Positions 66 to 40,837 of a stretch of DNA of 47,094 nucleotides are shown in pieces; the first letter of the stretch is position 1; the number at the start of each line of letters is the position of its first letter. The notes under the pieces were generated by a model. It saw only the letters and a list, made by a program, of their open reading frames with translations. It was not told the origin of the DNA and did not search any database. The DNA is from an uncultured Chloroflexales bacterium (GTDB taxonomy: Bacteria; Chloroflexota; Chloroflexia; Chloroflexales; Chloroflexaceae): assembly GCA_937925925.1 (NCBI GenBank), contig CALANA010000201.1:1-47094 (forward strand), written 5' to 3'. The position numbers and the translations under genes were made by a program.

Positions 66-2096
66 ATGAAATCATCAAACTGCGTGGACTCGTTGTCAAT
101 AGATCCCGGTAATCGCCTGGCACTGGTTACGAGTTGGTATCATGCGATTGCTATCTCCCATACCTACCCGGCTGATTCCGATGTATGCCAATGTTTATTG
201 GGACTGGTTGATCAGATGATCCTGTTGCTTGGCGCTGAGTCCCTGACGCTTGATCAGGCCGAGGCTCCAGGGATAGCGCTGGTAGGTATGGGCTATACCC
301 AGCCCGAAGTACTGCAACAGACCCTGCTGATTCTTGATCAACACCTGCGGCCCCTCTGCCGCACCGGGGCTGTCAGCCAGTATGAACAACGCCTGAGCAT
401 GCTGCTGGCGGGCATTGCCACTGGCTTTACCCGTGAATTACGTCGCGTAGTTGTACAGGAACAGGCAGAAATGCAGCAGGCGATATTGACAGCCTATCGC
501 CAGTCGGCAAAAGATTTACGATTCAGGGAAGAACAACTGCGGCTGGTGATAACAAATGCACCGCTTATTCTAGTGCAACTGGATCGAGAAGGCACGTTTA
601 CCTTCGCTGCTGGTCAGGGACTGACAGCTATCGGGTGGCAACCAGAGCAACTGGTTGGACACTCCATTTTTACCAGACTCGCCGATAGTGCCGAAAATTT
701 TGACTACTATCAGCGTGGATTGAAGGGCGAGGCAGTTACCTGGACAAGCATCTATGCTGGTCGGTGTTATGAGGCACGGCTTGTTCCGCTCTATGATGCA
801 CAGGGTATGCCCGACGGGGCGATTGGCCTGGGAGTTGACGTTACCGAGCGGGTCGAAGCGCATGCGGCACTGGCGTCCGAGCGTGAAAGTTTGGCACAGC
901 GCGTGGCCGAGCGTACCGCCGAGTTGAGCCAGGCTAATGCGGAACTGCGGCGTTCCAATCAGATGAAAGATGATTTCCTTGCTACCATGTCGCACGAACT
1001 CCGCACGCCGTTGCATGCCATGTTGATGATTGTTGAAGCGCTTCAAGAAGGGATCTACGATCCAGTTACCCCTAAGCAAGCCGCCAAATTAAAGCAGATT
1101 GAGGAAAGCGGCTATCATCTCCTGGATTTGATTAACGACACACTTGATCTGGCAAAAATCGGTGCCGGTAAGATGGAACTGGAGTTGGAAGCGGCCGATG
1201 TCAAAGCGATCTGTCAGAATAGTTTGCAATTAACGGAACAGGCGGCGCAGGTGAAGGGTCTGCGCATTGTCACCTCGTTCGATTCGCAGGTGACGGTGAT
1301 CCGCTGTGACGTGCGGCGTCTGATCCAGATCCTGGTGAATCTGCTTGATAACGCTATTAAATTTACACCAGCACACGGGACAATCGGGCTTGCAGTCGAA
1401 GGTGATCTGTACCAGCAGGCGGTGCGCTTCACGGTCTGGGATACGGGTATTGGCATTGCTGAGACTGATCTGTCACGCCTCTTCAAACCTTTTGTACAAC
1501 TGGATAGCAGTCTGTCACGGCTCTATCAGGGAACTGGCCTGGGATTGGCACTGGTGTATCATCTGACTGAACTGCACGGTGGTGGCGTTTCCGTGACCAG
1601 TATGCCAGGGAAGGGCAGTCGTTTTACGATTACGCTTCCCTGGCATGCGGCCAGCCTGTCCCTGGCCGATCCTGACCCGGATCTGGTACAGCAACAGGAA
1701 ATACCACGTATGTTCACCAATCAGCCCGTGATTGTACTGGCCGAAGATCATGTTATCACCCGCACGTTGCTGGTGGACTATTTGGAGCGGAAGGGTTGTC
1801 AGATCGTGCTGGCCCGGAATGGCCTGGAGGCGATTGAGCAGATACGGGCCACACAGCCAGATGTGGTTATCATGGATATTCAGATGCCCGAAATGAATGG
1901 CCTGGAGGCGATTAAGCACATACGCGCTGATGAAGCCTGCCAGCAGTTGCCGATCATTGCTGTTACGGCACTGGTCATGCCGGGTGATCACGAGCGCTGT
2001 CTGGCAGCCGGGGCAAATGCGTATGTGAGTAAGCCGATCAGTTTACAACACCTGGTTGCCATAATCGAGGATCTGGTGCAGCACGATAGTGAATAA
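66..2096 (+). CDS. Hybrid sensor histidine kinase with PAS and receiver domains
   Basis: A cytoplasmic-looking two-component hybrid kinase of 676 aa with no membrane segment. Residues 1-150 are a helical region I do not recognise. Residues about 155-260 form a PAS domain that ends in the usual 'DVTER' segment, followed by a coiled coil (about 262-300) ending in 'NQMKDDFLATMSHELRTP'. His310 in the H-box is the predicted autophosphorylation site. The ATPase domain shows the N-box (LLDNAIKF), G1 (DTGIGI) and G2 (GTGLGL). A C-terminal receiver domain begins near residue 555, with phospho-acceptor Asp604 in 'VVIMDIQMPEMNG' and the conserved KP near the end. The predicted flow is His310 to Asp604, probably onward to an unlinked phosphotransfer partner. 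No clear Shine-Dalgarno sequence precedes the ATG. It is convergent with the 7TM-GAF gene at 2181-4103. The signal sensed is unknown. Confidence 0.93.
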   Translation: MKSSNCVDSLSIDPGNRLALVTSWYHAIAISHTYPADSDVCQCLLGLVDQMILLLGAESLTLDQAEAPGIALVGMGYTQPEVLQQTLLILDQHLRPLCRTGAVSQYEQRLSMLLAGIATGFTRELRRVVVQEQAEMQQAILTAYRQSAKDLRFREEQLRLVITNAPLILVQLDREGTFTFAAGQGLTAIGWQPEQLVGHSIFTRLADSAENFDYYQRGLKGEAVTWTSIYAGRCYEARLVPLYDAQGMPDGAIGLGVDVTERVEAHAALASERESLAQRVAERTAELSQANAELRRSNQMKDDFLATMSHELRTPLHAMLMIVEALQEGIYDPVTPKQAAKLKQIEESGYHLLDLINDTLDLAKIGAGKMELELEAADVKAICQNSLQLTEQAAQVKGLRIVTSFDSQVTVIRCDVRRLIQILVNLLDNAIKFTPAHGTIGLAVEGDLYQQAVRFTVWDTGIGIAETDLSRLFKPFVQLDSSLSRLYQGTGLGLALVYHLTELHGGGVSVTSMPGKGSRFTITLPWHAASLSLADPDPDLVQQQEIPRMFTNQPVIVLAEDHVITRTLLVDYLERKGCQIVLARNGLEAIEQIRATQPDVVIMDIQMPEMNGLEAIKHIRADEACQQLPIIAVTALVMPGDHERCLAAGANAYVSKPISLQHLVAIIEDLVQHDSE

Positions 2097-2180
2097 CAGG
2101 ACTTGTACCAATGTAACTTCGATCTTCTGCATCTTTTTGTTCGTCTTACCCTTCCGTGTCTCGTCATCTCATCGCCGTAT

Positions 2181-4103
2181 TTACCGCTGTTCGCCATCTT
2201 CCATCATCACCAACTGGCGGGCAACTTCCTCGACGGCGATGCGTTGTTTGCGATAAAAATCCGACTCGCTCATTGCCAGACGGTTTGCCACATCGCGGAT
2301 GCGCTTGCCTTGCAAAAAGCGCAATTCTAAAATATTGTAGAGCAGCCATTCTTGTGCCGAGGGATCAAGTTGTTCGTCGGGACGCAGATTGTCGATGGCC
2401 TGGCGTAACACTGCCTGCAATGCCCGCGTCGGGCTACCCCCCTGATCTTCCAACAGCCGCCGCACTGAACGCATACCTAGCAACGGGCTGTCGGATAGTT
2501 TTGGCCCACCCCAATAGTGGGTCAGCGCATCTTTGACAATCTGGGGGAACTGGGGTTGCAAAGCTACATCGGACTCCAGTGCTGCCAGTGACGCCGGGGT
2601 CGCCTGTTCCAGGTGCGTGGTCAGTTGTTTGAGCGACTCAACTTCGGGGCCAAGGCCGCGCAGCGTCTTGAAAATGCGCTGTTGCATCTGCACGGTTGTC
2701 AGCGCCAGTTCCATCTGATGGGCCAGAACACCGATCAGTCGCCGCGACTCGACAGTGAGGGCACCATTGTGCTGCATTGACTGTGGGGGATACGCAACGC
2801 CTAATGCGCCCAGAAATTGCCCATCGGGGCTGTGCAGGGGCAACAGAAAGAAGCCATTGCACAGCAGAAACGCTTCGGGTGGTGGCAAGACGCGCAGATC
2901 ACGCGGGGCAATTTGTTGCATCTGCGGCATCAACTCTGCCAGTGGATACTCAGACACAAAATGCTTAACAGCGCGGCGTGAACCACATAGCGCCTTGACG
3001 GTGTAGCCATCTTCACTCGCGCCGGCCACAAAGCCGGTCTCGACGCGCAAGGCACCACAGACGGCAATCAGTGTGTTTTCGAGAAGCTGCCGCAAGTCAG
3101 CACGGGTAAAGGTGTCGCGGGGTAAACGCCGCAAGTAGTCGATCTCTTCATGATCCTGCATGTAGATCAACGCATACAGGTAAGGTCGTACCTGACTGAT
3201 CAGCATCGGCATGAGTACGGTCATAATCATAACTGCGAAAATAATCAAGGTATCTCTGGGCAAACCCAGCACCTGTTCAAACCAGGGTACGGCCTGAATG
3301 CATAGAATAATCGTGACGCCCACCACCGGGCCATACAAACCCCAGCGGATAAAGTCTTGCTTGATCAGCCGATCTGGCACCAGCATGCCTTGAAAGGCAA
3401 TGCTATAGGCCATAATCGTGATCATCACCATAATCCCGATATTGATAACGGCCGAAAAGACCAGGATCAGGTTGAGCGGTAGCGGTACCGCTGATCCGGC
3501 AATCACCAGGTAGGGAAAAACTGCCAGCCCCGGAGCGGTAAACGTCACGCCCAGGTAGGTTAGCCGACGCCGTAAGGTTGGTGTAAGTGCATTGCGCCGC
3601 GCATGGATAACAGAACGCAGCATGATCAACCCACTGAACGTGAGAAACAACACATACAACCAGAACAACGGCCCGGCGCTGAACTGTACCAGGATGTCAT
3701 TGGTGACACCATCGCGCACAATCAGGTCTGTCAGGAGTGCCAGCACAAAGAAGAGCAGACTGCCGATATAACTCGCAACAATCAGCGAGCGTGCGCTCCA
3801 CTTCTGCTTTTTGCCCAGACTCACCGTTAGCAGTGCCTGTGCGAGATGCAAATAGGCACCAGGGACGAGCGCAATACCCAGCCACTGCGCTCGCAAAAGG
3901 AACAGTGTTGTTTCAGGCCGGGTAGCGCGTGCCAGCAGAATATCGCCACCCTGGACAATGACCACACTGGTCAGTAGTACACACAACGCCTGTGCGGTTG
4001 CGTTGCGCCAGTTTTGCAGCGCGACATAGGCGAGCAGCGAAAAGGTAACAATTAAGACGGCAGCCGTCAACAGTTCGTTGATTTGCAAAATAATACTGGT
4101 CAT
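2181..4103 (-). CDS. Multi-TM sensor protein with GAF-like domain and C-terminal HTH-like region
   Basis: A membrane protein of 640 aa. The first ~305 residues hold eight or nine hydrophobic segments, resembling the 7TM N-terminal sensor module found in some histidine kinases and diguanylate cyclases. A linker beginning 'YMQDHEEIDYLRRLPRDTFTR' leads into a GAF-like region (about 335-470; note 'ETGFVAG' and 'LPLHSPDGQFLGALGV'). No H-box or ATPase motifs follow, so it is not a kinase. The last ~80 residues ('ILELRFLQGKRIRDVANRLAMSESDFYRKQRIAVEEVARQL') read like a helix-turn-helix of the sigma-70 region 4/LuxR sort. That would make it a membrane-bound one-component regulator, which is inference. 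It is transcribed towards the hybrid kinase, 84 bases apart. There is no obvious ribosome-binding site. Confidence 0.75.
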   Translation of the reverse strand: MTSIILQINELLTAAVLIVTFSLLAYVALQNWRNATAQALCVLLTSVVIVQGGDILLARATRPETTLFLLRAQWLGIALVPGAYLHLAQALLTVSLGKKQKWSARSLIVASYIGSLLFFVLALLTDLIVRDGVTNDILVQFSAGPLFWLYVLFLTFSGLIMLRSVIHARRNALTPTLRRRLTYLGVTFTAPGLAVFPYLVIAGSAVPLPLNLILVFSAVINIGIMVMITIMAYSIAFQGMLVPDRLIKQDFIRWGLYGPVVGVTIILCIQAVPWFEQVLGLPRDTLIIFAVMIMTVLMPMLISQVRPYLYALIYMQDHEEIDYLRRLPRDTFTRADLRQLLENTLIAVCGALRVETGFVAGASEDGYTVKALCGSRRAVKHFVSEYPLAELMPQMQQIAPRDLRVLPPPEAFLLCNGFFLLPLHSPDGQFLGALGVAYPPQSMQHNGALTVESRRLIGVLAHQMELALTTVQMQQRIFKTLRGLGPEVESLKQLTTHLEQATPASLAALESDVALQPQFPQIVKDALTHYWGGPKLSDSPLLGMRSVRRLLEDQGGSPTRALQAVLRQAIDNLRPDEQLDPSAQEWLLYNILELRFLQGKRIRDVANRLAMSESDFYRKQRIAVEEVARQLVMMEDGEQR

Positions 4104-10738: not shown

Positions 10739-10823
10739 AGAGCAATCCTATTCCAATTGTAACCGGGCGTCCAGGCTTTAGCCTGGACGCCTATTTTGTA
10801 CGACTGATATAGGACTGCTATAA
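10739..10823. repeat. TIR repeat family A, full copy
   Basis: The left arm AGCAATCCTATTCCAATTGT and right arm ACGACTGATATAGGACTGCT flank the perfect hairpin CCAGGCTTTAGCCTGG. It starts right after the DUF3793 stop, between it and the dnaK terminator hairpin. Confidence 0.65.
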
Positions 10824-29335: not shown

Positions 29336-29486
29336 AACCGACGGGAGTCCCAGCTTGAGCCGGGCCGGTGGTGCGTGGCGCTCGTCGCCCCTGACGCAAC
29401 CGACGGGAGTCCCGGCTCAAGCCGGGCCGGTGGCACCCGGCACCGGCACTCCGACCGGAGTCCCGGCTTAAGCCGGGCTGGTGTTG
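29336..29486. repeat. REP-like cluster, family C (GAGTCCCGGCTNAAGCCGGG)
   Basis: Three copies of the hairpin (C)CCCGGCTNAAGCCGGG joined to ACCGACGGGAGTCC stand in tandem. The same family occurs at 33525-33545, 34516-34539 and 35563-35696. It lies in the 590-bp gap before the PPDK-regulator gene. Confidence 0.7.
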
Positions 29487-33430: not shown

Positions 33431-33657
33431 GCGGGTGACCACGAGGGTCGCCCCTACGCACGGTGTCACATTGACACCAAATGCCGGGCAAAGGGGGCAT
33501 TGATCGGCAATGCCAGGCATTATTGAAGCCGGGACTCCGGGCGTGCGCAAAGCGTGCTAATATCGGGCCAGCGTTTCTGGTGGCAACCAGATTGATGGTA
33601 CGGTGTTGTGATGCAAAATGCAGTGCGATGGTTGGCGGGGCACATTATAATTCATAG

Positions 33658-33936
33658 TCAGGGCTTGGCGTTCTCCGAGGGAGTAAACGTGTGTTTTGCC
33701 AGGAACGACACGCGCTCCAGGGTGGCTGTTATATCCCACTCACTCATAAACAGCGGCAGGTTAACCATTTCAAAGCCGATGCGCGGCAGGACAACATCAA
33801 GGCTTACTTCCTCGCTTTCGGCGATTTCACACGCGAGTGCTACACACTCGTTTGTCATAAGCGTGTGACCGAGCAGGTGCAGCGTGCCTGATTTACACCT
33901 ATCGTCGGGCATGGTAATATGAGATGCTAAAGTCAT
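33658..33936 (-). CDS. Small protein of unknown function, divergent from the RHH gene
   Basis: 92 aa from the ATG at 33936, preceded by AGGAG at a spacing of 7, which is the main reason to trust it. The composition is ordinary for a soluble protein: 'HLLGHTLMTNECVALACEIAESEEVSLDVVLPRIGFEMV' and a closing 'LFMSEWDITATLERVSFLAKHTF'. I do not recognise a family. It shares the palindrome-bearing intergenic region with the ribbon-helix-helix gene at 34177 and could be under its control. Confidence 0.6.
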   Translation of the reverse strand: MTLASHITMPDDRCKSGTLHLLGHTLMTNECVALACEIAESEEVSLDVVLPRIGFEMVNLPLFMSEWDITATLERVSFLAKHTFTPSENAKP

Positions 33937-34097
33937 AACGAAACTCCTGGAAGCCACGCACGTCCGTAAACACATTGCGCCTCTCTCTGACGGTCGTGGC
34001 GCTGCTGGTGCCCCATATGTTTAAGCAGGGGGAGGATGCTCGTTGTTCCTGATGCGTTGGCATAAGGGCGCTACAGTATCCGATAGAAATGGCAGTG

Positions 34098-34122
34098 CCA
34101 TGGCAGTATTATACTGCCATGG
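34098..34122. promoter_or_regulatory. 25-bp perfect palindrome, likely operator
   Basis: CCATGGCAGTAT, one T, ATACTGCCATGG. A further half-site, GGCAGT, stands at 34091-34096. The palindrome contains TATACT, a plausible -10. It lies between the divergent genes at 33936 (minus) and 34177 (plus), the latter coding a DNA-binding RHH protein. Confidence 0.7.
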
Positions 34123-34176
34123 GTGCATTATTGTCAAGACCGTTCTGGCGGTAGGGCAATGGTAGGATGGTGAGAC

Positions 34177-34359
34177 GTGGCCGATATACGCACAAACTTA
34201 CGCCTCCCTGAGGAGTTATATGCACAAATTAAGCAACTGGCAGCCAGGGATCTCCGTTCGGTCAATGCTCAGATGATTGCGCTGCTGCAAGAGGCGATTG
34301 CCCACCGGCAACAGGAACTGCAACGTCAGGAACAACGGCCTGATCAGGAACTCAGGTGA
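34177..34359 (+). CDS. Arc-type ribbon-helix-helix DNA-binding protein
   Basis: 60 aa from a GTG start with AGGATGG upstream. 'RTNLRLPEELYAQIKQLAARDLRSVNAQMIALLQEAI' is a complete Arc/MetJ-type ribbon-helix-helix, followed by a Gln/Glu/Arg-rich tail. Such proteins are antitoxins or autorepressors. No toxin-like gene follows; the palindrome 55 bases upstream is its probable operator. Confidence 0.82.
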   Translation: MADIRTNLRLPEELYAQIKQLAARDLRSVNAQMIALLQEAIAHRQQELQRQEQRPDQELR

Positions 34360-34515: not shown

Positions 34516-34539
34516 GAGTCCCGGCTCAAGCCGGGACTC
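34516..34539. repeat. REP hairpin, family C, possible bidirectional terminator
   Basis: GAGTCCCGGCT-CA-AGCCGGGACTC: perfect 11-bp arms, in the convergent gap between the RHH gene and the SRPBCC gene. Confidence 0.6.
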
Positions 34540-34570
34540 TGGTCGTGTGTGTAAGAACGTGCTGGTGGGC

Positions 34571-35562: not shown

Positions 35563-35696
35563 GGCTAAAGCCGTGACTCCGGTTGGGGTTCCGGTGCCAG
35601 GTGCCACCAGTCTGTCTAAAGCCGGGACTCCGGTCAGGGTTCCGGTACCAGGTGCCACCAGTCCGTCTAAAGCCGGGACTCCGGTCGGGGATGGAT
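35563..35696. repeat. REP-like cluster, family C, with 52-bp period
   Basis: Three copies of (T)AAAGCCGGGACTCCGGT followed by (C/T)(A/G)GGGTTCCGGT(G/A)CCAGGTGCCACCAG. It lies in the 355-bp gap upstream of the tautomerase. Confidence 0.7.
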
Positions 35697-35746: not shown

Positions 35747-35779
35747 GCTGGAGGCGGCAGCATAGCTGCCGCCTCCAGC
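35747..35779 (-). terminator. 15-bp perfect hairpin downstream of mce
   Basis: GCTGGAGGCGGCAGC-ATA-GCTGCCGCCTCCAGC lies 22 bases past the mce stop on the minus strand. No T tract is present, so termination is inferred from position and stability. Confidence 0.55.
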
Positions 35780-36576: not shown

Positions 36577-36735
36577 AGCGCCAACGATACCGAAACCATG
36601 AGGTGTCATGCCGATCCATCATCTGGTTGTGTACTTCTGAATATCCTGTTTCACTGATTTTTCTGGATCGATATTGAGATCTGTCTACAGACAATTGTGA
36701 TGATCGGTAAGATCTTAGTCACACAGGAGCGGAGT

Positions 36736-38220
36736 ATGTCCACTATTTTAGAATCTGGTACGCTTATTCATGCCCGCTATCGCGTGGTGCAACTGATCGG
36801 GCAAGGCGGGATGGGCGCGGTGTATACGGCTATTGACGAGACCTTTGGCAGTCAGGTGGCGCTCAAGCAGATGGTTCCCACCCCGCACCTCAACCCATCC
36901 CAGGTAGCGGGCATCGAACGGGCCTTTCAGCGTGAGGCGCCCTTGCTACACCGGTTGCAGCATCCCGCGCTCTCACACGTTAGGGATTCTTCTGTTGCCG
37001 CCAGTGGGCGTTTTCTGGTGATGCCCGCATGTACGGAAGCTACCATACGCCGACGTCCGCACCTTCCTCTGACCCAACCACTGTCCAGTTCGCCCGCACC
37101 AGCGCCGCACCGGCCGCGCTGGTTGCGGTTCGGTCGTCTGGTGGCGCTGGTGCTGGTGCTGGTATTCCTCGGCGTAGGACTCGCGGGCTGCAGTTCGTCG
37201 GGGCGTCTGGGGAGCAGCGAGCGTAGGGATCAAACCGATACTCCCGGTATTCCAACAGGCACGATGCCCATTTCCCCTGAAAATGCGGCAACCGTGGTGC
37301 AACTTGCCCGCCTGGGCAAGGGATCAATCCATGATGTTGCCTGGAGTCCTGATGGCCGCCAGTTGGCCGTGGCTTCCGCGATAGGTCTGTTCCTGTACGA
37401 TGCGGACACACTCAAAGAAATACACCAGATGGCAAAGACTTCGATAACACGTGTGGCGTTTGCACCCGACGGGGCGACGCTGGCCTCGGTGTCGATGTAT
37501 GATACGATCGGGCGGTTGTGGCAAGCAGCGGATGGCAAGCTGCTGCACACGTTTAATGGGCACACAGGTGGGGTGTGGAGCGTGGCGTTCGCGCCGGACG
37601 GGGCGACGCTGGCCTCCGGGTCATGGGATACCACCGTACGATTGTGGCGGGTGACGGGCGTGCTACTGAACACGATCAATGCGCACACGGGGACGGGTAT
37701 GGTGTGGAGCGTGGCATTTGCGCCGGACGGGGCGACGCTGGCCTCAGTATCATATGACAATAGCGTGCGGCTGTGGCGGGTGGCGGATGGTACGCTGTTG
37801 CGCACGCTGGAAGGGCACACGGACTGGATACGGAGTGTGGCCTTTGCACCAGACGGGCAGACGCTGGCCTCGGCGTCATATGACAAGACCGTGCGGCTGT
37901 GGCGGGTGGCCGATGGCACGCTGCTACACACACTGGAGGGGCACACAGACTTGGTGAACAGCGTGGCCTTCTCACCAGACGGGGAAACGCTAGCCTCGGC
38001 GTCATATGACACCACCGTGCGGTTGTGGCGGGTGGCCGATGGTACGCTGTTGCACACGCTGGAAGGGCACACAAATTTGGTCGAGAGTGTAGCGTTCGCA
38101 CCGGATGGGAAGACACTGGCGTCAGGGTCGTTGGATGGTACCGTACGGCTGTGGGGAGTACCGGGTGAGCAAGTTGTTGCCGGGCGTGGCGGCGCGGCGA
38201 CGCAGAGGAGCAGCCTGTAG
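36736..38220 (+). CDS. Kinase N-lobe / lipobox-like TM / 7x WD40 protein (copy 1)
   Basis: 494 aa from the ATG at 36736 (AGGAGCGGAG upstream). Residues ~8-95 are the N-lobe of a PknB-type Ser/Thr kinase: glycine loop 'LIGQGGMGAVY', then 'VALKQM' with the ATP-binding Lys, the helix-C region 'AFQREAPLLHRLQHPAL', and the hinge-like strand 'ASGRFLVMP'. There the kinase ends: no HRD, DFG or APE motif follows. A Pro-rich linker leads to a membrane segment (about 134-152) closing in 'GVGLAGC', a good lipobox. Residues ~190-490 hold seven WD40 repeats ('SVAFAPDGATLASGSWDTTVRLW'), enough for one propeller. It cannot be a catalytic kinase as it stands. Its tandem partner at 38561 has the same truncation. 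Confidence 0.85.
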   Translation: MSTILESGTLIHARYRVVQLIGQGGMGAVYTAIDETFGSQVALKQMVPTPHLNPSQVAGIERAFQREAPLLHRLQHPALSHVRDSSVAASGRFLVMPACTEATIRRRPHLPLTQPLSSSPAPAPHRPRWLRFGRLVALVLVLVFLGVGLAGCSSSGRLGSSERRDQTDTPGIPTGTMPISPENAATVVQLARLGKGSIHDVAWSPDGRQLAVASAIGLFLYDADTLKEIHQMAKTSITRVAFAPDGATLASVSMYDTIGRLWQAADGKLLHTFNGHTGGVWSVAFAPDGATLASGSWDTTVRLWRVTGVLLNTINAHTGTGMVWSVAFAPDGATLASVSYDNSVRLWRVADGTLLRTLEGHTDWIRSVAFAPDGQTLASASYDKTVRLWRVADGTLLHTLEGHTDLVNSVAFSPDGETLASASYDTTVRLWRVADGTLLHTLEGHTNLVESVAFAPDGKTLASGSLDGTVRLWGVPGEQVVAGRGGAATQRSSL

Positions 38221-38560
38221 TAACAACTTTAGTCGTTGCGGCCCACCCGGCGCGGACGGCACCCCGAAGCCGTGCCCGACCGCGAACGGCTCGGTGCCCT
38301 TCAGCGCCAATGGGCCGCGTTTCAGCGGAATCAGACAGCTATACGCATAGTTCCCCCGTACCGTGGTGCAGCGCCTCAGCGATTCTGACCTATAGCGGGA
38401 TGCGCGGAGGCGCGCAGGCGCGAGGCGCGCAGGCCCGCCGCCGTCCACCGTGGATACGTGTGTTACAATAGCGCCAACGATACCGAAAACATGAGGCGTC
38501 CTGCCGGGCCATCACCTGGTTGTGATGATCGGCAAGACCCTGGTCGTCCAGGAGCAGCGC
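38221..38560 (+). promoter_or_regulatory. Duplicated upstream region with promoter of copy 2
   Basis: This 340-bp gap repeats the region upstream of copy 1. GTAGTAACAACTTTAGTCGT corresponds to 36419-36440, 'GCGCCTCAGCGAT' to 36499, and TGTTACAATAGCGCCAACGA (38461-38480) to 36568-36587. An internal insertion, CGGCGCGGACGGCACCCCGA onward (38255-38310), resembles 41114-41170. Confidence 0.55.
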
Positions 38561-40837
38561 ATGTCCATCTTCTTAGGAACTGGTACGCTTATTCATGCCC
38601 GCTATCGCGTGGTGCAACTGATCGGGCAAGGCGGGATGGGCGCGGTGTATACAGCCATTGATGAGACCTTTGGCAGCTCGGTGGCGCTCAAGCAGATGTT
38701 TCCCACCCCGCACCTCAACCCATCCCAGGTAGCGGGCCTCGAACGGGCCTTTCAGCGTGAGGCGCACTTGCTGCACCAGTTGCGGCATCCCACGCTCCCG
38801 CGCGTCAGCGATTATTTTGTTGCCGCCAGCGGGCGCTTCCTGGTGATGCCCGCGTTTACGGAAGCTACCGTACCCCAGCACCCGCACCTGCCTTCGATCC
38901 AACCACTGCCCCATGCGCCCACACCAGCGCCGCACCGGTCGCGCTGGTTGCGACTCGTCAGTCTGGTGGCGTTGGTACTCGTGCTGGTATTGCTCGGCGC
39001 AGGACTCGCGGGCTGCAGTATGCCGGAGCGTCTGGGGGGCAATGTTTCCTCCATTTCTCCGGAGAATGCGGCGACCGTGGTACAGCGTGCCCGCCTGGGC
39101 AAGGGATCCGTGCAAGACCTTGCCTGGAGTCTCGATGGTCGCCAGTTGGCTGTGGCTTCCTCAATTGGTCTGTTCCTGTACGATGCAGACACGTTCCAGG
39201 AAAGACGCCTGATAGCGGCGGATACCTGGATAAGAAGCGTGGCGTTCGCGCCGGACGGGGCGACGTTGGCCTCGGCGTCGGATGACCAGACGGTGCGGCT
39301 GTGGCGGGTGGCGGATGGCGCGTTGCTGCACAAGCTCAGGCACACAGGTTTGGTGGAGACCATGGCGTTCGCGCCAGACGGGGAGATGCTGGCGTCGGCG
39401 TCCAGGGACGAGACGGTGCGGCTGTGGCGGGTGGCGGATGGCGCGTTGCTGTACACGCTTGAGGGGCACACGGACGAAGTGGTGAACGTGACGTTCGCGC
39501 CGGATGGGGCGACGCTGGCGTCGGCGTCCAGGGACGAGACCGTGCGGCTGTGGCGGGTAGCGGATGGCACGTTGTTGCACACGCTTGAAGGGCACACGTC
39601 CTGGGTGCGGAGCGTGGCGTTCGCGCCGGACGGGGAGACGCTGGCGTCGGGGGCGTGGGATGAGACCGTGCGGCTGTGGCAGGTGGCGGATGGAACGTTG
39701 CTGCGCACGATCGAGGGGCACACGAGTGAGGTGGAGAGCGTGGCGTTCGCGCCGGACGGGGAGACGCTGGCGTCGGCGTCGTATGATCAGACGGTGCGAC
39801 TGTGGCGGGTGGCGGATGGCACACTGCTGCGCACCCTTGAAGGGCACACGGGTGTGGTGCGGAGCGTGGCGTTCGCGCCAGATGGGGCGACGCTGGCGTC
39901 GGTGTCGCATGATCAGACGGTGCGACTGTGGCGGGTGGCGGATGGCACACTGCTGCGCACGATCGAGGAACACACGCATGTGGTGACGAGTGTGGTGTTC
40001 GCCCCGGATGGGGCAACGCTGGCATCGGTGCCGGGGGACGAGACCGTGCAGCTATGGCGGGTGGCGGATGGCACACTGCTGCGCACGATCGAGGAACACA
40101 CGCATGTGGTGACGAGTGTGGCGTTCGCGCCGGACGGGACGACGCTGGCGTCGGGGTCATGGGATGGTACTGTGCGACTGTGGCGGGTGGCGGATGGCAT
40201 GCTGTTGCGCACGTTCGAGGGACACGTGGGTGCAGTGAGAAGCGTGGTGTTTGCGCCGGACGGAGCGACGCTGGCCTCGGCGTCCAGGGACACGACGGTG
40301 CGGCTGTGGCGCGTGGCGGATGGTATGCTGCTGCACACGTTCGAGGGGCACACGGACTGGGTGTTGAGCCTGGCGTTCGCGCCGGACGGGGCCACGCTGG
40401 CCTCGGCGTCATCTGATCATACTGTACGGCTGTGGCGGGTAGCGGATGGCACGTTGCTACACACGCTGGAGGGGGAGGGGCACACGCACTGGGTGAGAAG
40501 CGTGGCGTTCGCGCCGGACGGGGCGACGCTGGCCTCGGCGTCGATGGACGAGACGGTGCGGCTGTGGCGGGTGACGGATGGGGCGGTGTTGCACACGCTC
40601 GACGGGCACACGGACGAAGTGGTGAGCGTGGCGTTCGCGCCGGAGGGGGCGACGCTGGCCTCGGCGTCGATGGACGATACCGTACGACTGTGGCGCATAG
40701 CCGATGGCATGCTGTTGCGCACGCTCCAGGGGCACACGTCGTTGGTGACAAGCGTAGCGTTCGCGTTGGACGGGGCGACGCTGGCCTCGGCGTCGATAGA
40801 TGGTACGATCCGGCTGTGGGGGCTACCGGATGAGTAA
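38561..40837 (+). CDS. Kinase N-lobe / lipobox-like TM / 14x WD40 protein (copy 2)
   Basis: 758 aa from the ATG at 38561 (CCAGGAG upstream). Its plan is identical to copy 1: kinase N-lobe with 'LIGQGGMGAVYTAIDETFG' and 'VALKQM', hinge 'ASGRFLVMPAF', no C-lobe, Pro-rich linker, membrane segment ending 'GAGLAGC'. Residues ~180-757 contain fourteen WD40 repeats, exactly two seven-bladed propellers' worth. Repeats 2-14 are near-identical in DNA (126-bp period; recurring GGACGGGGCGACGCTGGC and GTGCGGCTGTGGCGGGTGGC), pointing to recent amplification or gene conversion. The WD40 part is probably outside the membrane if the segment acts as a signal anchor. The role may be scaffolding (inference). Confidence 0.85.
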   Translation: MSIFLGTGTLIHARYRVVQLIGQGGMGAVYTAIDETFGSSVALKQMFPTPHLNPSQVAGLERAFQREAHLLHQLRHPTLPRVSDYFVAASGRFLVMPAFTEATVPQHPHLPSIQPLPHAPTPAPHRSRWLRLVSLVALVLVLVLLGAGLAGCSMPERLGGNVSSISPENAATVVQRARLGKGSVQDLAWSLDGRQLAVASSIGLFLYDADTFQERRLIAADTWIRSVAFAPDGATLASASDDQTVRLWRVADGALLHKLRHTGLVETMAFAPDGEMLASASRDETVRLWRVADGALLYTLEGHTDEVVNVTFAPDGATLASASRDETVRLWRVADGTLLHTLEGHTSWVRSVAFAPDGETLASGAWDETVRLWQVADGTLLRTIEGHTSEVESVAFAPDGETLASASYDQTVRLWRVADGTLLRTLEGHTGVVRSVAFAPDGATLASVSHDQTVRLWRVADGTLLRTIEEHTHVVTSVVFAPDGATLASVPGDETVQLWRVADGTLLRTIEEHTHVVTSVAFAPDGTTLASGSWDGTVRLWRVADGMLLRTFEGHVGAVRSVVFAPDGATLASASRDTTVRLWRVADGMLLHTFEGHTDWVLSLAFAPDGATLASASSDHTVRLWRVADGTLLHTLEGEGHTHWVRSVAFAPDGATLASASMDETVRLWRVTDGAVLHTLDGHTDEVVSVAFAPEGATLASASMDDTVRLWRIADGMLLRTLQGHTSLVTSVAFALDGATLASASIDGTIRLWGLPDE

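Follow-up and report, generated by a model that had tools for sequence, protein, structure and literature searches.

A palindrome centred on a predicted bidirectional promoter between a ribbon-helix-helix gene and a divergent orphan gene in a Chloroflexales genome

What might a long and perfect palindrome be doing between two small genes that are transcribed away from each other? The question is raised by positions 33658–34359 of a 47,094-nucleotide stretch of DNA (hereafter, the window), which is contig C201 of the 5.23-Mb genome, in 316 contigs, of an uncultured Chloroflexales bacterium. The original prediction, which delimited this range correctly, had seen here a small self-contained regulatory module composed of a ribbon-helix-helix (RHH) regulator gene, a gene of 92 codons and the palindrome, and had suggested that it was possibly a new toxin-antitoxin-like pair. 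The base of comparison throughout is a sister genome (G001), the only other member of the genus among the genomes searched, and statements about conservation rest on this one comparison.

The rightward gene (34177–34359, plus strand) starts with GTG and encodes a 60-aa protein of the Arc/MetJ type, which scored above the Pfam cut-offs for both RHH_5 (E=1.6e-7, 31.4 bits against a cut-off of 26) and Arc (E=2.5e-7, 30.9 bits against 20.4); its profile matches in the PDB include AmrZ, Mnt and Arc. It is a bare, repressor-sized protein (56 aa in the sister genome), whose tail is short, hydrophilic and poorly conserved. The gene is preceded by a ribosome-binding region, AGGATGG (34164–34170, plus strand), which is conserved in the sister genome (AGGATGGTGAG). 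Relatives of the protein at E ≤1e-4 are found in 12 of the 158 genomes of the class, and the close orthologues are those of the two genus members only.

The leftward gene (33658–33936, minus strand) diverges from the RHH gene and encodes an acidic orphan protein of 92 aa that is predicted to be helical, with a net charge of -7 (-8 in the sister homologue). The claim that this gene is well initiated held good, with an ATG at 33936 behind the Shine-Dalgarno sequence AGGAG (33944–33948, minus strand), and AGGAG also precedes the ATG in the sister genome. Searches of Pfam, PHROGs, NCBIfam and PADLOC returned no match to the protein at E ≤1, the best row of a PDB search had an E value of 0.41, and the sister homologue gave sub-threshold rows only in the family-library searches. 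That homologue, at 60% identity, is the one that was found. Rows at E ≤0.01 were obtained in four of the 158 genomes of the class, two of these being the genomes that carry the pair. Two loci considered as distant relatives, L021 (E 0.001, with an internal stop) and L022 (E 0.008), were set aside as chance matches: their frames overlap other ORFs, and no RHH ORF was obvious by eye beside L021 (among ORFs of at least 40 aa) or L022 (at least 60 aa). A sample of 400 genomes of the phylum yielded the 92-aa protein once, in the genome of the window itself. The plasmid and phage collections contained no match to this protein, the viral contigs no match to either protein, and the genome contig collection no match to the pair beyond the sister record. 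Two AlphaFold2 models of the 92-aa protein, built on a two-sequence alignment, are helical, and confidence in them is low (mean pLDDT, 61.7 and 64.6). With Foldseek, neither had a match in the PDB at E ≤0.001, nor had the second among viral structures at the same threshold. A structural re-comparison gave a best Z of 6.1 for the first model (the N-terminal domain of SigE, 67 residues, 3.6 A) and of 4.0 for the second, both within a range that the tool calls common.

Is the pair a real genetic unit? The original prediction would have fallen if neither the gene pair nor the palindrome were conserved; the pair and the core of the palindrome are both kept in the sister genome, where the divergent pair lies on contig C1096 with protein identities of 60% for the 92-aa gene and 66% for the RHH gene. 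At first, second and third codon positions, the two genomes differ 18/19/40 times in the 92-aa gene (88 codons compared) and 10/9/26 times in the RHH gene (56 codons). The values of dN/dS estimated by NG86 were 0.24/1.08 and 0.21/1.04, respectively (ratios of 0.22 and 0.20), and those estimated by YN00 were 0.27/0.71 and 0.28/0.49, with weaker ratios of 0.38 and 0.57. Because the divergence is biased toward third positions and dN is below dS, each gene has the appearance of a genuine coding sequence under selection, a reading that two sequences support rather than prove.

The pair occupies different chromosomal places in the two genomes. The thrS side of the sister contig maps to contig C146 of the window's genome, and within the first 3.9 kb of the sister contig the only DNA match to that genome is the region of the pair, the next match being a tRNA gene. 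The left-hand neighbours in the window map to two other sister contigs (C732 and C831). Beyond the 92-aa gene, the sister contig carries a transposase-like HTH ORF at ~1.4 kb and a tRNA-Arg gene at ~2.0 kb. Because both assemblies are fragmented, part of this difference in context could be due to assembly. Nonetheless, because the pair, its orientation, the palindrome core, the outer half-site and the promoter described below are kept together at a different chromosomal place, the view that this is a self-contained module is supported. Judged by ORF layout, each gene is monocistronic in both genomes. A dispersed repeat, AAGCCGGGACTC(C/T)GG, occurs in the window at 33526–33545, 34528–34547, 29455–29469 and 35568–35684. 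Two copies bracket the module (at 33526 and 34528), but the 12-base core of the repeat is present 207 times in exact form in the genome (once for a reversed control), and many of these copies are arranged in tandem or as inverted pairs; repeats so widely dispersed are no evidence of a mobile unit. A comparison of the window with Rfam gave nothing at gathering scores.

The alignment of the DNA between the genes (240 bp in the window, 236 bp in the sister genome) is poor outside two blocks, each identical at 18 of 20 positions: 34101–34120, which is the core of the palindrome, and 34131–34150, which comprises the -35 box described below and the bases that follow it. The best ungapped 20-mer match is 18 of 20, and in mononucleotide shuffles of the sister sequence (n = 60) it did not exceed 15 of 20. 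The palindrome itself, CCATGGCAGTAT-T-ATACTGCCATGG (34098–34122), is as predicted 25 bp long and perfect, with 12-base arms around a central T. Among inverted repeats of the window with a loop of 0–1 it is the longest, and an arm of at least 12 (loop 0 or 1) appeared in none of 100 dinucleotide-preserving shuffles of the window, in which the longest arm was 11. Other inverted repeats in the window that are of similar or greater length (35747–35779, 10766–10791 and 34516–34539) are GC-richer and have loops of 2–3; the first of these, with 15-base arms and a loop of 3, is the longest in the window and may be a terminator.

The extra half-site that had been predicted is also present, as TGGCAGT at 34090–34096 (plus strand), in the same orientation as the TGGCAGT of the left arm (34101–34107) and offset from it by 11 bp. 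TGGCAGT thus occurs three times, with centre spacings of 11 and 12 bp, and the array ends with the palindrome 54 bases before the GTG of the RHH gene; the predicted proximity stands, with this distance in place of the 55 bases first given. A spacing of about one helical turn between half-sites is usual for the Arc/MetJ-type RHH family, and here such repeated half-sites adjoin the regulator's own gene. In the sister genome, the palindrome has shrunk to a 17-bp core with one pair mismatched, and the outer half-site reads TGGTAGT, again at an offset of 11 bp. We propose the palindrome, with its conserved core at 34102–34118 (GGCAGTATTATRCTGCC), as the putative operator of the RHH protein. The conserved block that starts at the -35 box and extends in the direction of the RHH gene (34131–34152, 18/20) contains TGGCGGT (TGGCGTT in the sister genome), which may be a weak fourth half-site or else an upstream element of the promoter.

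What does the palindrome cover? The minus strand, which leads to the 92-aa gene, carries a -35 box TTGACA (34132–34137) separated by 18 bp from a -10 box TATAAT (34108–34113) at the palindrome centre, a 12/12 match to the consensus, with a predicted start at A 34101 and a leader of about 165 nt. Perfect TTGACA/TATAAT promoters with N17–18 number 26 in the 5.23-Mb genome, against 0 for a reversed control pattern, and to judge from its sequence this one would be strong when free of repressor. On the plus strand, towards the RHH gene, the -10 box is TATTAT (34107–34112), with a predicted start at A 34119 and, across a 17-bp spacer, a weak -35-like element, TAGAAA (34084–34089), that brings the match to 9/12. 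The two -10 boxes interlock, the -11 and -7 positions of one strand pairing with the -7 and -11 positions of the other, and the predicted starts are 18 bp apart, both A, with -18T on both strands. With reciprocal -11A/-7T and this start distance, the region has the form of a bidirectional promoter, as judged by sequence geometry alone. The -10-like TATACT of the earlier reading is better read as interlocking TATTAT and TATAAT, and the centring of the palindrome on a bidirectional promoter goes beyond that account. The sister genome has TTGACA-N18-CATAAT in the same position, an identical plus-strand hexamer and the reciprocal -11A/-7T, with G at the minus-strand start position as we read the alignment. 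The rightward -35-like element was not listed in a promoter scan of the sister region; because it is weak in the window and not found in the sister genome, transcription of the RHH gene may start from a different promoter.

Does the RHH protein have other targets? The operator core (GGCAGYATWATRCTGCC) is found at a single site in each of the two genomes that carry the pair, whereas the remaining 156 genomes of the class lack it. When up to three mismatches to the 17-bp core were allowed, 15 further matches were found in the genome, all with three mismatches, against four for a reversed control; by our arithmetic, about 12 would be expected in uniform sequence. The one that we inspected of the 15 (L017) lies inside a coding-size ORF, and these genome-wide near-matches give no support for a regulon. 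Because there is one operator core per genome and the near-matches all differ at three positions, regulation by the RHH protein seems to be directed at a single target and not to be global. The paired GGCAGT arrangement was absent upstream of seven other small RHH loci (one lone match, in G043, in a scan without a control), and several of these upstream regions have inverted repeats of their own.

We therefore asked how these elements might work together. In our judgement the locus is probably a dedicated, single-target, autoregulated RHH repressor module in which the divergent 92-aa gene is held shut. Arc-type RHH dimers would bind at the palindrome and at the outer half-site and, because the palindrome is centred on the two interlocking -10 boxes, the bound protein would exclude RNA polymerase in both directions, repressing its own weak promoter together with the consensus-strength promoter of the 92-aa gene. 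Removal or dilution of the RHH protein would then release strong monocistronic transcription of the 92-aa gene, and the module would behave as an autoregulated, tightly held switch. Binding at this site, repression, its relief and the use of both starts are what we infer from the sequence, and our guess for the 92-aa protein is a helical partner or effector that acts locally and whose expression is costly if unregulated.

Could the symmetry instead belong to the promoter? Passages in two reports describe bidirectional promoters as pseudo-symmetrical by nature (PMC12825309, PMC10268837), and the predicted starts and -18T positions fit such a promoter exactly. Some palindromic character in the -10 region is to be expected of any bidirectional promoter, so that part of the symmetry may be owed to RNA polymerase and not to the RHH protein. 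That the palindrome is nothing else, and that the RHH protein acts elsewhere, is nevertheless very unlikely: the 12-base arms extend the symmetry past the promoter's need, the conserved GGCAG/CTGCC arms sit between the -10 boxes and the predicted starts, the extra half-site keeps its 11-bp offset, and the genome offers no second exact copy of the core on which the protein could act.

The identity of the 92-aa protein invites further readings. In favour of a toxin, with the RHH protein as its antitoxin and autoregulator, is that the two small genes stay together while their neighbourhood changes; RHH is a common DNA-binding fold of antitoxins, as stated in a passage of PMC4803016, and the placing of a consensus promoter beneath an operator hints that the gene product needs to be kept off. 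However, the genes are divergent and do not form one operon in either genome, and two transcripts running in opposite directions would not couple doses as type II operons do; moreover, the protein is acidic, the tail of the bare RHH protein has the short and variable character noted above, and no toxin family was matched in Pfam, PHROGs, NCBIfam, PADLOC or the PDB, although a new toxin would give no match either. The toxin-antitoxin part of the original prediction thus found no support, and we regard a divergent pair of this kind as highly improbable. An anti-repressor or co-regulator that creates a feedback switch by binding the RHH protein, perhaps by means of a helical hairpin of RHH type, would fit the second model, in which a hairpin (about residues 29–60) is better defined than in the first, with helices at 29–42 and 46–64 and pLDDT near 90 at residues 31–50. 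The Foldseek rows include an Arc mutant (1baz, E 4.7) and the RHH antitoxin TacA2 (7ak7, E 6.8), and Arc (1b28) was aligned at Z 2.0 over 35 residues at 3.8 A. Yet all of these fold matches are at noise level, the models are of low confidence, and a profile-profile comparison of the protein with RHH gave a probability of 0.1%, which lends no support to an RHH-like hairpin; the anti-repressor reading is thus quite unlikely. Somewhat broader, and still rather unlikely, is a reading in which the 92-aa protein stands at the head of an orphan family, restricted to the genus, that directly opposes the RHH protein, as a complex-forming anti-repressor or a neutralised toxin, and in which the locus is a divergent, mobile, bistable switch of two genes, with a single palindrome for its entire control region, at once the operator and a pair of interlocked promoters.

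How does the autoregulated repressor module that we favour compare with known systems? In immunity region I of phage P22, the short RHH repressors Arc and Mnt sit on a promoter and control divergent transcription through paired half-sites about one helical turn apart. The module is similar in its short RHH protein, its paired half-sites and its proposed promoter-seated control of divergent transcription, and in an alignment with Arc the RHH protein has Asn and Arg at matching strand positions (nLRlPeeL/NLRWPREV). It differs in being chromosomal, with no phage genes seen beside it, in having three half-sites at 11- and 12-bp spacing, and in having as a partner an orphan of no known antirepressor type. 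Type II toxin-antitoxin loci with RHH antitoxins likewise consist of a small pair with an RHH regulator and apparent autoregulation, whereas here the genes are divergent, there is no toxin family, and the RHH protein is without a clear toxin-binding domain. The Omega repressor of the omega-epsilon-zeta system, as part of PMC4803016 describes it, is a MetJ/Arc-type RHH protein that governs a toxin-antitoxin operon and reads several 7-bp sites, palindromic and non-palindromic, with the heptad NATCACN; several 7-bp sites of both kinds are found here too, but they are TGGCAGT, lie 11–12 bp apart and serve divergent genes. As to the promoter, the interlocked -10 layout with starts 18 bp apart is given in a passage of PMC10268837 as the commonest among bacterial bidirectional promoters, and the region shares with the promoters of PMC10268837 and PMC12825309, in the parts that describe them, the 18-bp start distance, the reciprocal -11A/-7T, the A starts and the -18T. 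In contrast to those promoters, a perfect 25-bp palindrome, the presumed operator, is centred on this one, and a consensus -35 box in one direction is combined with a weak one in the other. Such promoters, one recent paper states, are hardly studied in bacteria, with nothing known on their control (PMC12825309).

The kind of system proposed here, an autoregulated RHH repressor with a divergent target and a bidirectional promoter, is already known, and its effector is an orphan. Judging by titles and the openings of abstracts, we found no description in the literature of a divergent RHH pair like this one. To our knowledge, the regulators of Chloroflexota, the phylum of the host, have been little studied. 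The module provides a compact natural case in which one palindrome is at once a candidate repressor operator and a predicted, exactly symmetrical bidirectional promoter, and if our model is true, a single local repressor silences both directions of such a promoter. The 92-aa orphan lends itself well to a screen of function, since its promoter, its operator and its likely regulator have each been defined.

Some further features of the two contigs deserve mention. The adjacent ORFs at 36697–38220 and 38522–40837 of the window each have, by eye, a protein-kinase-like start followed by WD40-like repeats, and apparently represent two copies of one gene, as though a duplication had taken place recently. 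On the sister contig (L013), a 457-aa ORF without a Pfam match (1945–3318) is convergent with the 92-aa gene; its last 95 residues resemble by eye an antitoxin-like small protein, perhaps through fusion or read-through of the frame. Several of the 26 perfect promoters in the window's genome have palindromes inside the spacer by eye, such as GAACATATGTTC at C168:33398, which we take to be LexA-box-like, as if the consensus promoters of this genome were the repressed ones.
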